From NCBI RefSeq assembly GCF_003934285.1, contig NZ_RQWJ01000003.1:554501-618500 (forward strand): a DNA stretch of 64,000 nt. Direction: 5' to 3'. Every line of letters starts with the position of its first letter. Within the stretch, counting starts at the first letter, position 1. The position numbers and the translations under genes are program-made. Shown here in pieces: positions 28,918 to 38,879 of this stretch. The notes below the pieces were generated by a model. It saw nothing but the letters and a program-made list of their open reading frames with translations. It made no database searches and was not told the origin of the DNA. The DNA comes from Brevundimonas fluminis. Lineage in GTDB: Bacteria > Pseudomonadota > Alphaproteobacteria > Caulobacterales > Caulobacteraceae.

Positions 28918-31113
28918 TCAGTAGCGGAAGGTCAGCGAGGCACTGAGGTTGCGGCCCGGCTGGGTGTATGCGTCCAGCACCGCGGAGGTCCCGGACAGGC
29001 CGCGAACGTCGCTCCACCAGCCGTAGGATTCGTCCGTCACGTTGAACAGGCCGGCGCGCAGCACGGCGTTGTCGGACACATTCAGATAGAGGGTCACGTC
29101 CAGCAGGGTGAACGCCTCGCCGGCGTAGCAGTCCGGCGCGCAGGCCAGACCGGCGAGGTCTCCCGGGTCCTTGGCGTCCGACCAGGTCAGGACGGCCTGG
29201 CCGCCCCATAGTCCCGCCGGGTCGTCGTAACCCAGCCCGCCGACGAGCTTGATCGGGTCGATCGTGACCAGCGGCACGGTCGTCGTGCCCGAGGTCTGGT
29301 CGCCGGCGGCCCAGGCGGCCGAGAACCGCGCCCGGAAGCCGTTGTCCCAGAACACGTCGGCGCGGGCCTCGACGCCCGACACCTCGACCTCTGTGAAGTT
29401 GACGAATTGATAGACGGCCGGGTCGGCGGGGGTGAAGGAGCCCGAGACCACCTGCTGGCTGATGAAGTCCTCATATTCGGACCTGAACGCCACGACCTGC
29501 CCGGCCAAACGACCGCCCGGCAGATCGAGGTCGCGCCACCGCGCCCCGATCTCCACGCTGGTGCTGGTCTCCGGCCCCAAGTCAGGGTTCGGGACCGACA
29601 CATAGCCGAACGCCGGGTTGGAAAAGCCGTTGTTCACCTGCGACGGCGTGGGCGCCTTGAAGCCCGCGCCATAGCTGCCGAACAGGCCGAAGGCGTCGCT
29701 GGCCCACCAGACCACGCCCAGCTTGGGCGACAGCCGCTCGTCGGACTGATCGGCGCGTGCGCCTGAGTACAACGGGTCGGCCGTCGTCGTCAGCTCATAG
29801 GAGTCGAACCGCAGCGCCGGGATGATGCGCAGGCTCCCGCCCATCAGCAGGATCTCGTCCTGAACGAACAGTCCCGACAGGCGATAGTCGGTCTCCGGGA
29901 ACGGGCTGGAGGGAAAGGTCTCGCCGGCCGGCGGCACCGTGCCGTCGCGGATGCCGATCTGGGTCGTCTCCGACCAGTCGCCGCCGAAGGTCAGGCGATG
30001 CGTCGTTCCGGCGAAGTCCAGGGTCCTGACCGCTTCGGCCCCGAACCCGATCACCTCGTTGTCGAAGCGGTTGTCCCGCGTGCGGTCCAACGCCGGGGTG
30101 CGGTCCTCGAAGGTGAACTGCCGCGTCTCCGACGTCTGGCGATAGGCCGTGACCTGCCCGCGATCGAGACCCAGGACGCCGTCGAACCGCCAGTCCGCCG
30201 CGACCCGTTCGCGCCGGGTCTCATCGTCCGCGCGCAGGTCCAGCACCGAGGCGCTGCGGCCGCTCAGCACGTTCGCCGAGACGTCGGACTCATGGGCGTC
30301 GTAGGTCAGCCGCAGCCGGTGCCCCGGCGCCACGTCCCAGACCGCCTTGGCCAGCAGCGACTCCGAAGACAGGTCCTGAGGGTTGGCCGTGGTGCGCAGC
30401 GCGCCCTCGACGTCGTTCGTGCCGGCCGTTTCGGTCTCCGAGGCGTCGCGCGTCGTGTACGCGATCAGTCCTGAAAAGGCGCCGATGCGGCCCGCCGTCG
30501 ACAGGCCGTACGTCCGCCCGTCGTCCGCCGAATTGTAGCCCAGCCGCCCGCGCACCGCGACGTCGCGCCCGCTCACCAGCAGGTCGGACGGATCCTTCGT
30601 CGTGAACACCACCGCCCCGGCAACGCCGTCCGAGCCGTACAGCGCCGACGCGGGGCCGCGCAGGATCTCCACCGACTTCATCAGCTCCAGATCGGCATAG
30701 CCGCCGCGGCCCACGCTCTGGGCGCCGAAGACGAATCCGTCGGCCATGCGCACGCCGTCCACGACCTGCAGCACGCGGTCGCCGCCCAGCCCGCGGATGG
30801 TGAAGCCCTCATTGCCCGCCCGACCCGTGGTCCCCAGCGCCGCGCCGAACCGGGCCGGCTGGCTGACCACGCTGACGCCCGGCTCGAACCGGACCAGGTC
30901 CTTGATGTCGGTGTACAGGTTCGCCTCGATCTCGCGCGCCGTGATGACGCTGACCGTGGCGGGGGCCTCGTCGACCCGGATGGCGGTGCGCGTGGCGCTG
31001 ACGGTGATCGGCGCCACCTCCGTGACCGGCGGTTCCTGCGCCTGGGCCAGCGCGACGCCGGGGAGGACCGTCATGGCCAGTGAGGCGGTGGTGGTCAGAA
31101 GACGGATTCTCAT
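28918..31113 (-). CDS. TonB-dependent receptor, haem/haemoglobin-type
   Basis: This 731-residue outer-membrane protein has a signal peptide (about residues 1-24), a TonB-box region APITVSATRTAI, and a plug domain with ATVSVITAREIEANLY, FTIRGLGGDRVLQVVDGVRM and EILRGPASALYGSDGVAGAV. A 22-strand barrel follows and the C-terminus ends with an aromatic residue (LSASLTFRY), as required for Bam assembly. The plug pattern is closest to haem, haemoglobin and transferrin receptors. A Fur-box candidate lies just upstream and a DUF6607 gene downstream. The ligand is inferred, not proven. Confidence 0.88.
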   Translation of the reverse strand: MRIRLLTTTASLAMTVLPGVALAQAQEPPVTEVAPITVSATRTAIRVDEAPATVSVITAREIEANLYTDIKDLVRFEPGVSVVSQPARFGAALGTTGRAGNEGFTIRGLGGDRVLQVVDGVRMADGFVFGAQSVGRGGYADLELMKSVEILRGPASALYGSDGVAGAVVFTTKDPSDLLVSGRDVAVRGRLGYNSADDGRTYGLSTAGRIGAFSGLIAYTTRDASETETAGTNDVEGALRTTANPQDLSSESLLAKAVWDVAPGHRLRLTYDAHESDVSANVLSGRSASVLDLRADDETRRERVAADWRFDGVLGLDRGQVTAYRQTSETRQFTFEDRTPALDRTRDNRFDNEVIGFGAEAVRTLDFAGTTHRLTFGGDWSETTQIGIRDGTVPPAGETFPSSPFPETDYRLSGLFVQDEILLMGGSLRIIPALRFDSYELTTTADPLYSGARADQSDERLSPKLGVVWWASDAFGLFGSYGAGFKAPTPSQVNNGFSNPAFGYVSVPNPDLGPETSTSVEIGARWRDLDLPGGRLAGQVVAFRSEYEDFISQQVVSGSFTPADPAVYQFVNFTEVEVSGVEARADVFWDNGFRARFSAAWAAGDQTSGTTTVPLVTIDPIKLVGGLGYDDPAGLWGGQAVLTWSDAKDPGDLAGLACAPDCYAGEAFTLLDVTLYLNVSDNAVLRAGLFNVTDESYGWWSDVRGLSGTSAVLDAYTQPGRNLSASLTFRY

Positions 31114-35626: not shown

Positions 35627-35851
35627 GTCCGCTCTCCCTTGCGGCGAAGCTTGCGCCCGGAAGGGTCCCCGTCAATGCGCATGGATGACCAATCAGCTTC
35701 AGTGAGCCCCGATCAGGTTCCGTAGGGCTGCGCCGCGCGTCCCCGGGTCTACGTTGGCTCGACGGACGACGGGTCCGGCGGTCGCGGGTGCCTCGACTTC
35801 GCGGGAAACGCGTGGGACGGTGACGCTTCGCAAGCAGTGGGAGTGACGGGG

Positions 35852-37240
35852 ATGATGATGCGACGGACCTTGCTGGCGGGCGCCGCCTTCGCGCTGATGG
35901 CGGGCGCGGCGGCCGCCCAGGAAGCACAGATCGACACCCGGCCCGGCGGGCCCGAGCGCGTCGACCTTACCATCTATCAGGGCAACGTGACCCTCGTGGA
36001 GGACGTGCGCGGCCTCAGCATCCCCGCCGGTCGGTCGCGGCAGGAGTTCCCGGGAGTCTCGGCCTCCATCCGGCCGGAGACCGTCAGTCTGTCCGGCCGC
36101 GGGCTCGAAGTGGTGGAGCAGAACTTCGACTATGACCTGCTGACCCCCGACAAGCTGATGCAGAGCGCGGTGGGACAGGAGATCGGCCTCGTCCGCATCA
36201 ACCCTGGTACCGGCCGCGAGGAGACGCAGCGCGCCACCGTGCTGGCCGCCAACGAGGGCGTGGTCCTGCGCATCGGCGGAAACGTCGAGGTGCTGCGCGA
36301 CGACGGCGTCCCGACCCGCGTCATCTTCGACGAGGTGCCGGCCAACCTGCGCCCGCGCCCGACGCTCAGCGTCACCCTGGACGCCGAGGGCGGCGGCCGC
36401 CGCGACGTGACCCTGACCTATCTGACTTCAGGTCTCAGCTGGACCGCCGACTACGTCATGCGCGTGGACGAGCGGGCCTCGACCCTGGACCTCGTCGGCT
36501 GGGTGACGATCTCGAACCGCTCCGGAGCCACCTTCACCGACGCCGAGACCCGCGTGGTGGCCGGCGACGTGTCGGCGGGCGCGAACTACCGCGGCAATGG
36601 CGTCGCCGCCTCGGACGACCAGTCGCTGGGCGACTACTACGTCTATCCGCTGCCCGAGCGTGTGACCGTCGCCAACAACCAGAACAAGCAGGTCGGCCTG
36701 CTGGACGTCTCCGGCGTGGCCACCACCAAGCGCTATCTGTGGGAGATCTACGGCTTCACCACCTCGGCCCAGCCGCAGGCGGTCGAGGTGGCCTACCTCT
36801 TCGCCAACGGCCCGATGAACGGGCAGAACCGGTCGCTGCCGGCCGGCACCATCCGCGTCTACATCAACGACGCCTCGGGCGAGCCGCGCTTCATCGGCGA
36901 AGACTCGATCAGCCACACCCCCGCCGGTTCCGACCTGGCCATCACCACCGGCGAGGCGTTCGACGTCACGGTCCAGCCGCGTCTGGTGTCCGAAGAGCGG
37001 GTCTCCACGCGGATCGTCGACTATTTCCGCACGCGCCGCTCGGTCGAGTACACCCTGCGCAATGCCAGACCTGAGCCCGTCACCATCGAGGTGCGTCAGG
37101 GCGGCCTCGGCCGCGACACCGAGATTCAGGAGCAAAGCCATCCCGGCGTGCTGGAGGATTCCCGCACCGTCGTCTGGAAGGTGCAGGTGCCCGCCAACGG
37201 TGAGGTCAAGCTGACCGCCACCATCGAGACGGGCGGCTGA
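35852..37240 (+). CDS. Exported DUF4139 protein, first paralogue
   Basis: This 462-residue protein has a signal peptide (MMMRRTLLAGAAFALMAGAAAAQ) and a DUF4139 region in its C-terminal two thirds, with TLTYLTSGLSWTADYVMRVDE and DYYVYPLPERVTVANNQNKQV as hallmarks. The fold is expected to be beta-rich and periplasmic or surface-exposed. The start ATG follows a GGGAGTGACGGGG stretch. Its stop is one base before the start of a second DUF4139 gene. Function is unknown. Confidence 0.85.
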   Translation: MMMRRTLLAGAAFALMAGAAAAQEAQIDTRPGGPERVDLTIYQGNVTLVEDVRGLSIPAGRSRQEFPGVSASIRPETVSLSGRGLEVVEQNFDYDLLTPDKLMQSAVGQEIGLVRINPGTGREETQRATVLAANEGVVLRIGGNVEVLRDDGVPTRVIFDEVPANLRPRPTLSVTLDAEGGGRRDVTLTYLTSGLSWTADYVMRVDERASTLDLVGWVTISNRSGATFTDAETRVVAGDVSAGANYRGNGVAASDDQSLGDYYVYPLPERVTVANNQNKQVGLLDVSGVATTKRYLWEIYGFTTSAQPQAVEVAYLFANGPMNGQNRSLPAGTIRVYINDASGEPRFIGEDSISHTPAGSDLAITTGEAFDVTVQPRLVSEERVSTRIVDYFRTRRSVEYTLRNARPEPVTIEVRQGGLGRDTEIQEQSHPGVLEDSRTVVWKVQVPANGEVKLTATIETGG

Positions 37241-37241
37241 G

Positions 37242-38879
37242 ATGCGCGCCGCCCTTTTGGCGGCGACGGCGGTGTTCAGCCTGCTGGCCGCGCCCGCGCT
37301 CGCCCAGACGGTCTCCACGTCGGAGAGGGCCGACACGGCCACCGTCGTCATCTATCGCGACCGGCCGGTCGACACCGTCGAGCTGATGGAACGCTCGCGC
37401 CAGTCGTGGAACCGGCTGGACCGCGAGGGCCTGGCCCTGATCGTCGAGACGCGCACGGTCGACGTGCCGGCCGGCGACGCCGTGATCCGATTCGAAGGCG
37501 TCTCGACCGGCATCGTGCCGCAGAGCGTGACGATCGCGGGCCTGCCCTCAGCCGTGCTGGAACAGAACGCCGACTTCGACCTGCTGACCCCCGGCTCGCT
37601 GCTCGACAAGTCGATCGGGGACACCGTTCAGGTGGTCCGCACCAATCCGGCGAACGGCCGCCAGGAGGTGCGCCCCGCCGTGGTCCGCTCCGGCGGCTCC
37701 GGTGCCGTGCTGGAGATCGACGGAAAGTACGAGGCCCTGTCCTGCTCCGGCCTGATCGAGCGGGTGATCTTCGAGGACGTGCCCGAGGGCCTGTCCGACC
37801 AGCCGACCCTGTCGATTCGCACGCGCAGCCTGACGCCCGGCCGGTACACGGTGACGCTGGCCTATCTGTCGACCGGGCTGCAGTGGTCGACCGACTACGT
37901 CGCCCGCCTGTCGCCGGACGGCCGCACCCTCGACCTTACCGGCTGGCTGACTCTCGCCAATTTCGGCGGCACCACCTTCCCCGATGCCCCGGTCCAGGTC
38001 GTCGCCGGCGACCTCCAGACCACCGGCCGCAGCGTCCCCGTCGACCCCGTCGTCCGCCTCCGCCGCCCCGGCTGCTGGCCGCAGGACACGACGACGAACG
38101 GCGTCAATCCGGACATGAAGGACATGTACGGCGGCTACTATCCGCCTGTCATGGCGCCGCCCCCGCCGTCGCCGCCCGCGCCGCCTCGACCGGCCGCCAT
38201 GCGGGCGACCGACGAGATCGTCGTCACCGGCAGCCGCATCGCCGAACAGGGCGAGCTGGGCGACTACAAGGTCTACACCCTGCCGTCCCCGACCACCGTC
38301 GCGGCGCGCCAGACCAAGCAGGTGCGGTTCCTCGAGCGCGAGGACGTTCCCTACGACCGCGTCAATCGGCAGTGGATCGGGGCCTACGGGATGGACGCCG
38401 GTGAAGCGGCCGACGAATCCACGCCCCAGGTCGTCTTCCGCCTGCGCAACACCGAAGCCGGCGGTCTGGGCATCGCCTTGCCGGGCGGAAACTGGAGCCT
38501 GCGCCAGCTGACGCCGGAGGGCCGTGCCGTCTATGCGGGTGAGGCCGAAACCCGCGATCGGCCCGTCGGCCTGCCGTTCGAGCTGGCGCGGGGCGACGCC
38601 TCGGACGTCCGCGTGAGAACCCGGGTCACCGCAGACGGTGCACGCACGCGCCGTGCGCTGACGACCAGGTGGCGCGAGGTCGAGGTCGTGGTCACCAACT
38701 TCGGCGACGACGCCGAGACGGTCGAGCTGGCCCCGCAGGACTTCAACGACACCGGCTTCCGCATCGTCCGCCAGAGCGTCCGCAGCGCGGTCACCGACGG
38801 CGGCTGGCCCGCCTGGACGCTGACCGTCCCACCCGGCGAGAGCCGGACCCTGACCTATCGCTACGAGGTGACGGAGTAG
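37242..38879 (+). CDS. Exported DUF4139 protein with proline-rich, TonB-box-like insert
   Basis: This 545-residue paralogue of the preceding gene has a signal peptide (about residues 1-23) and matching blocks (LSTGLQWSTDYVARLSPD, LGDYKVYTLPSPTTVAARQTKQV). Between these it carries an insert of about 60 residues that is absent from the first paralogue: a Cys/Tyr-rich part, a Pro-rich linker (about 304-317), and DEIVVTGSRI at 324-333, which looks like the start of a TonB-dependent receptor. The role of the insert is unknown. Tight spacing to the first gene means one transcript. Confidence 0.85.
   Translation: MRAALLAATAVFSLLAAPALAQTVSTSERADTATVVIYRDRPVDTVELMERSRQSWNRLDREGLALIVETRTVDVPAGDAVIRFEGVSTGIVPQSVTIAGLPSAVLEQNADFDLLTPGSLLDKSIGDTVQVVRTNPANGRQEVRPAVVRSGGSGAVLEIDGKYEALSCSGLIERVIFEDVPEGLSDQPTLSIRTRSLTPGRYTVTLAYLSTGLQWSTDYVARLSPDGRTLDLTGWLTLANFGGTTFPDAPVQVVAGDLQTTGRSVPVDPVVRLRRPGCWPQDTTTNGVNPDMKDMYGGYYPPVMAPPPPSPPAPPRPAAMRATDEIVVTGSRIAEQGELGDYKVYTLPSPTTVAARQTKQVRFLEREDVPYDRVNRQWIGAYGMDAGEAADESTPQVVFRLRNTEAGGLGIALPGGNWSLRQLTPEGRAVYAGEAETRDRPVGLPFELARGDASDVRVRTRVTADGARTRRALTTRWREVEVVVTNFGDDAETVELAPQDFNDTGFRIVRQSVRSAVTDGGWPAWTLTVPPGESRTLTYRYEVTE

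Follow-up and report, generated by a model that had tools for sequence, protein, structure and literature searches.

The TonB-box-like sequence DEIVVTGSRI, which a first-pass annotation had noticed in the middle of a DUF4139-like protein of Brevundimonas fluminis, is a family-wide trait; the annotation was right, and the observation is stronger than its author supposed. The Ton motor opens receptors and is hijacked by phages and bacteriocins, and plug-like segments are annotated in some Bacteroidota non-receptor proteins. TonB boxes outside receptors are already known from bacteriocins; neither TonB boxes in DUF4139, YfbK or SIMPL proteins nor a function of DUF4139 and YfbK proteins was found described in the open-access papers searched. 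Judged from sequence, the box in the insert is reasonably likely to serve a resident envelope protein as its docking site for TonB, and the annotation's reading of recruitment by TonB is supported. The wide retention of this tag among relatives suggests that the action of TonB may extend to non-receptor proteins.

The DUF4139 gene pair and its boxed insert

In the window (the whole stretch of DNA analysed, 64,000 nucleotides of a 2.64-Mb genome assembled as 10 contigs), a single base separates the stop codon of paralogue 1 (35837..37240, +; 467 aa as an ORF from GTG) from the ATG of the insert carrier, paralogue 2 or DUF4139-2 (37242..38879, +; a 545-aa ORF), and the products of these adjacent genes are possibly partners. 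Paralogue 1 scores 40.9 bits against Pfam DUF4139 (PF13598), over the curated cut-off of 31.8, and is thereby homologous to the DUF4139/mucoidy inhibitor MuiA family, while paralogue 2 reaches 26 bits and falls under it; the MuiA cut-off (TIGR02231, 112.6 bits) is reached by neither (37.5 bits for paralogue 1 and 12.5 for paralogue 2). The two proteins share 43% identity across residues 63-260 (E 6.8e-47), and paralogue 2, being homologous to paralogue 1 yet below the Pfam cut-off, is therefore called DUF4139-like; it differs from both families in these scores and in its boxed insert. Neither a plug (PF07715) nor a beta-barrel (PF00593) was among its Pfam matches at E up to 1, it had no match in a plug search of its own genome, and no toxin family appeared among its Pfam and NCBIfam matches. 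By eye, the N-termini of both paralogues resemble signal peptides, and this feature, together with a conserved cysteine pair likewise judged by eye, suggests export of paralogue 2 to the periplasm.

Between the shared anchors VAG256 and LGDYK339, paralogue 2 has 82 residues (the insert, residues 257-338; 38010..38255, +) and paralogue 1 has 20, a net gain of 62 that agrees with the 'about 60' first reported. The insert runs, in order, through CWPQDTT (38073..38093, +), a loose stretch, the proline-rich linker PPPPSPPAPPRPAA (residues 306-319; 38157..38198, +), DEIVVTGSRI (residues 324-333; 38211..38240, +) and AEQGE. The first-pass annotation had placed the ORF and the motif correctly, and was also right that paralogue 1, with its 20-residue loop, has no TonB box. 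CWPQDTT forms the first part of the flexible stretch and its C278 is invariant both in alignment A1 (which combines the window protein, L001, with 44 of 62 further references) and in A2 (the window protein and 76 of 77 references, the partial L150 being left out). The segment LSCSG (37737..37751, +) holds C168, which is invariant in A1 and nearly so in A2, and the invariance of both cysteines across the 45 rows of A1 suggests that they pair in a disulfide.

DEIVVTGSRI is the sole match in the six frames of the window to [DE]x(0-1)[ILVM][IVM]VT[AG]x(0-2)[KR] and agrees with the [DE]-x-[ILV]-V-V-T-[AG]-like form of TonB boxes. For example, the BtuB box DTLVVTAN (PMC13253070) aligns with DEIVVTGS, and receptor boxes share with paralogue 2 the core [DE]-x-hydrophobic-V-V-T-A/G, which lies here in a segment predicted to be disordered. 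Receptors, however, carry the box at the N-terminus, whereas that of paralogue 2 is in mid-protein, in a sequence without a plug or barrel match. In the window's own genome, 20 of 21 plug matches pass the cut-off, as do two of three TonB_C matches, the best of which is L340 at 47.2 bits. The pattern [DE][ILVM][ILVM]VT[AG] occurs there at 21 places against 1 for the reversed pattern: 12 at receptor N-termini just 5' of the plug match, one in paralogue 2, and eight elsewhere, which by eye we take to be mostly cytoplasmic enzyme-like proteins (ATP synthase beta, UvrC and others) together with one LptA-like protein. Paralogue 2 is the only exported-looking non-receptor with a full box among these places, and its motif differs from the box EEIVVTGSRIRR of receptor L224 in the first letter alone. 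A further pattern for this genome, GTNNTNACNGGN, was discarded as much too unspecific, with 239 places against 47 for the reversed control.

In an AlphaFold2 model built on A2 (77 rows; mean pLDDT 85, pTM 0.75), the insert is mostly disordered and is not buried in the DUF4139 fold. Blocks within residues 261-330 have pLDDT values of 41-65, a flexible and accessible segment by prediction only, and all other blocks from residue 21 on have values of at least 77; the motif falls partly in a block of 46 and partly in one of 79, with a strand at 335-339 just after it. The arm is predicted to be flexible, with most of the box outside the fold. The nearness of that strand would suit a box that merely supplies an edge strand to its own protein or to the paralogue-1 partner and resembles a TonB box in appearance only. 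This explanation is very unlikely, however, as in 13 of the 82 inserts that have VT[AG] its last occurrence is separated from the insert end by 23-39 residues, the box stands ahead of the prolines in L013, L015 and L021, and the same box is found in unrelated folds. A docking site that can reach TonB would be expected to take this form, a long disordered arm with a box at its end, and docking is for that reason taken as the most likely reading. Searches of solved structures gave no matches at E up to 1 with A1 by sequence and none with E <= 0.001 against the PDB by Foldseek. VIA-align superposed 91 residues on glycosidase beta domains with Z scores up to 8.9 (rmsd 2.8); since best Z scores of 7 to 8 are typical where there is no true relative, no function was assigned on this basis.

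Conservation of the box and turnover of its surroundings

Within the family, 66 of 249 genomes contain relatives. Named genomes yielded a further 84 stretches, 80 of them retained, from Brevundimonas, Caulobacter, Phenylobacterium, Rhizomicrobium, Hyphomonadaceae and a few differently titled records. At the level of the class, relatives were present in 51 of 385 genomes, and 7 of the 30 loci fetched had a long insert, two of these seven being the window's genome and G002. Relatives also occur on plasmids of four Sphingobium strains (34% identity, E 1e-52), whose protein was read separately and stands outside the counts given below. In Sphingobium sp. TomMM7A (L343:3232-4809, +), both DUF4139 paralogues, box included, are on a 998-kb plasmid.

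To be counted as paralogue 2, a protein needed an insert of at least 55 residues and a profile score of at least 230, which excluded the truncated genes L074, L075 and L076. The 148 long-insert proteins gave 100 distinct inserts after exact duplicates, due largely to genomes present in both of two collections, were collapsed. VT[AG] was present in 82 of the 100 (mean 8.84 and maximum 17 in 1000 shuffles), [ILVM][IVM]VT[AG] in 69 (shuffles: mean 0.29, maximum 3) and VTG[STNQARYV]R in 61 (mean 0.14, maximum 3), and the shuffles rule out a chance origin of the motif. The corresponding counts were 2, 0 and 0 among 117 distinct short loops, a class defined by length that comprises paralogue 1 and its relatives plus one truncated paralogue 2 (L075).

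The box was kept in most orthologues, and in more than one taxonomic order. In the family-genome search, the strict form was found in 18 of 19 loci of the genus and VT[AG] in all 19, while for proteins of the family as a whole the values were 41/64 and 49/64. Brevundimonas-titled proteins gave 23/26 and 25/26, a count that excludes L137 (titled B. vancanneytii; insert with IVVTAQK), and Caulobacter-titled proteins 13/27 and 19/27. In Caulobacter vibrioides DSM 9893 (L132), the DUF4139-2 box reads EEIMVTGARAK. Among the 18 distinct inserts lacking VT[AG], 12 of which belong to genus code g22, several have near forms (VITG, VATG, VSAAR, VVAAQKR), and nothing box-like was recognised in those of L064, L044, L107 and L127; even with degenerate forms allowed, 10 of the 100 inserts fit neither box class. 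The eight Caulobacter-titled proteins without VT[AG], and a pattern of presence and absence that needs at least 14 changes on a quick tree (100 proteins, 452 columns outside the insert), show that the box is dispensable in places.

Where the box is present, its flanks follow a consistent grammar. In 77 of 81 boxes, at least one of the two positions ahead of the hydrophobic residues is an acidic D or E, and a basic K or R follows within three residues of VT[AG] in 80 of 81, neither being required by the pattern. Receptor boxes fall into the same two classes, VTG and VTA, and the distribution of their exact forms (66 and 16 rows) requires a minimum of 11 changes on the tree. This is fewer than with shuffled labels (mean 15.1, minimum 13 in 50 shuffles), so that inheritance accounts for the class in part. 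Box and proline run also differ in their relative order, with seven changes among 55 rows, and these changes, together with the VTG/VTA switches, indicate that the motif persists as the sequence around it turns over. Five distinct Brevundimonas-type inserts hold two boxes (L016/L100, L102, L103, L104 and L161), while L041 and L042 were flagged as two-box through an incidental VT[AG] only.

Boxes and Ton-system peptides in other exported-looking proteins

A search for the motif in six genomes found four exported-looking non-receptors with a box besides DUF4139. The pattern GANVTNNYNGTNACNGGNNNNMGN (of the D/E-x-x-V-T-G-x-R/S type) occurred there at 66 places and its reversal at 23, of which 13 were in G047, where the forward pattern has 4; this reversed excess indicates that weak genomes are noisy. 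The 66 places comprise 53 receptor ORFs (52 by a plug profile from the window's genome), three DUF4139 proteins, the four other exported-looking proteins, two paralogous enzymes with DLSVTGAR and four short or, by eye, probably wrong-frame ORFs; 63 of the places were read, the remaining three lying in loci already known (receptor L245 and DUF4139 L239 and L051). The four are a SIMPL (DUF541) protein (L254:1341-2330, -; PF04402, 72.8 bits) with EDVAVTGARVQR and then a proline run near its C-terminal end, a VWA protein with an apparent lipobox (L278:1289-2773, +) in which a long proline run precedes GDVVVTGSRVRR, a YfbK vWA protein (L279:1231-3183, +; YfbK_C, 205.3 bits) with a box and about 45 plug residues, and a 274-aa ORF without a Pfam match (L249:1306-2127, +), in which DEVVVTGARM comes just after a likely signal peptide.

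Relatives of the YfbK protein were matched in 50 of 149 genomes of the family, with zero matches in the window's genome at E 1e-40. An anchor was present in 28 of 31 loci, and among these the strict box preceded the vWA part in 11 (shuffles 0.24, maximum 3), or in 10 of 27 without the query L279, which had been chosen for its box; the match in L327 is doubtful. A looser form of the box was found in 14 of the 28 (shuffles 0.55, maximum 4). The linkers (L279, L310-L339) are proline-rich, often boxed, and sometimes contain scrambled plug pieces such as DYLATVPALSNSLVP; in this combination the Caulobacteraceae YfbK homologues resemble DUF4139-2. A tentative generalisation, which we put at somewhat less than an even chance, is that in Caulobacterales and their relatives DUF4139-2, the YfbK vWA proteins, the VWA lipoprotein, SIMPL and others would be TonB clients, with proline-rich arms bearing Ton-system peptides by which the Ton motor pulls or sorts soluble or lipid-anchored periplasmic proteins.

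Receptor likeness extends past the box in several DUF4139-2 inserts, namely L020, L070, L104, L161 and Sphingobium P0003. Tandem copies of paralogue 2 in G047 have two different receptor-like starts, VVTGSRIKRSEFNSAAPIEVM and VITARKREEAIQDVPIAVM; the insert with the former matches a receptor ORF of that genome at 77% identity across 30 aa (E 2.4e-10). A G189 insert with DYLATIPALSNS likewise matches a receptor ORF, at 80% identity across 20 aa (E 7e-4), and the Sphingobium insert reads ADDIIVTAQRRQEAMQSAPMAFSVV, next to a paralogue 1 whose loop has no box. Such residues would be accounted for by a loop that docks to receptors or their assembly factors, replacing or standing beside the plug N-terminus, and not to TonB; yet the common element of the inserts is the box and not the plug residues, which makes docking to receptors quite unlikely.

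A second shared peptide occurs in TonB itself. L340, the best TonB_C match of the window's genome (G000:C4:739215-739442), has EPTKKEDRVEYTAPPVIVPGPPPPP in its proline-rich region, and the L012 insert contains EPTYKQDRVEYNGPPVIVPGPPPPP, which is like this peptide at 18 of 22 residues. Peptides of this type (EPTxKxDRVEYxxPPVIVPG) are common to DUF4139-2, YfbK and TonB linkers, the pattern being found in 8 of the 100 inserts (shuffles 0.08, maximum 2) and, in a looser form, in 4 of the 28 YfbK linkers, the shuffle control applying to the inserts only; the window's own insert does not have it. At a guess, the peptide reflects a shared partner.

This second peptide held in common by three kinds of protein, the scrambled order of the plug pieces and the 18 inserts without a box would all be consistent with a neutral mosaic, in which the proline-rich linkers of exported proteins recombine with one another, any sequence is tolerated in the loop, and receptors and TonB just happen to be frequent donors. 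However, the box is kept in 82 of 100 inserts with its acidic and basic flanks, the recognised pieces are Ton parts, and the codons are hard to reconcile with neutrality. Identical codons at agreeing residues made up 45 to 67% between inserts and receptors, and the counts were close to the expectation from codon usage, itself taken from few genes each: 12/21 (11.7 expected), 9/18 (9.7; the L012 insert and TonB L340) and 10/15 (8.0) for inserts, and 20/33 (16.9), 21/36 (18.6) and 18/40 (21.1) for YfbK linkers. The eight pairs computed thus give no support to a recent conversion by receptor or tonB sequence. Randomisation of the synonymous sites looks complete, yet the peptides remain alike, which points to kept peptides under selection rather than to recent DNA copies, and a neutral mosaic is accordingly judged unlikely.

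A possible role for TonB at resident envelope proteins

If docking is the correct reading, TonB would take up the box as an additional edge strand, in the way known for receptor boxes, and would then tether, pull on or reposition the DUF4139 pair; we infer the export to the periplasm, the TonB binding and any use of force. The C-terminal domain of TonB binds boxes by strand addition, often with micromolar affinity and in complexes that are mechanically strong (PMC13253070). TonB-dependent colicins, klebicins and pyocins are likewise non-receptors with a box in an unstructured segment bound by TonB, but are imported toxins, whereas paralogue 2 is a paired chromosomal gene product of many species without a toxin-family match (for the bacteriocins, PMC11658791 and PMC7593965). 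A further parallel is offered by the Myxococcus gliding proteins GltAB, which are said to hold possible TonB boxes and for which a TonB-type force on resident envelope proteins has been proposed, as is proposed here for DUF4139-2; GltAB, however, are predicted beta-barrels, unlike paralogue 2, and their boxes are described only as 'possible' (PMC5349195).

Two roles would fit. As a client, the pair would be moved or strained by TonB, in keeping with the conservation of the box and with the force proposed for the gliding proteins (PMC5349195); as a sink, DUF4139-2 would limit free TonB, which fits too, and we lean towards the client role. Proteins of the vWA fold have been proposed as force transducers, in a paper whose main text uses the term 'TonB box' 0 times (PMC12204202). 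Should conserved TonB boxes indeed be a feature of proteins resident in the periplasm, TonB would have house clients, receptor-rich genomes would have to split the Ton motor between these and the receptors, and the DUF4139 and YfbK proteins would gain a first functional handle.

Among the 80 named loci, a plug-containing ORF lay within the flank (up to 4 kb) in 10 only, and a linkage of paralogue 2 to a receptor gene was dropped on that count. The window itself has a TonB-dependent receptor plug match at 30613-30975 (-), about 5 kb from the gene pair (L193; N-terminus APITVSATRT).
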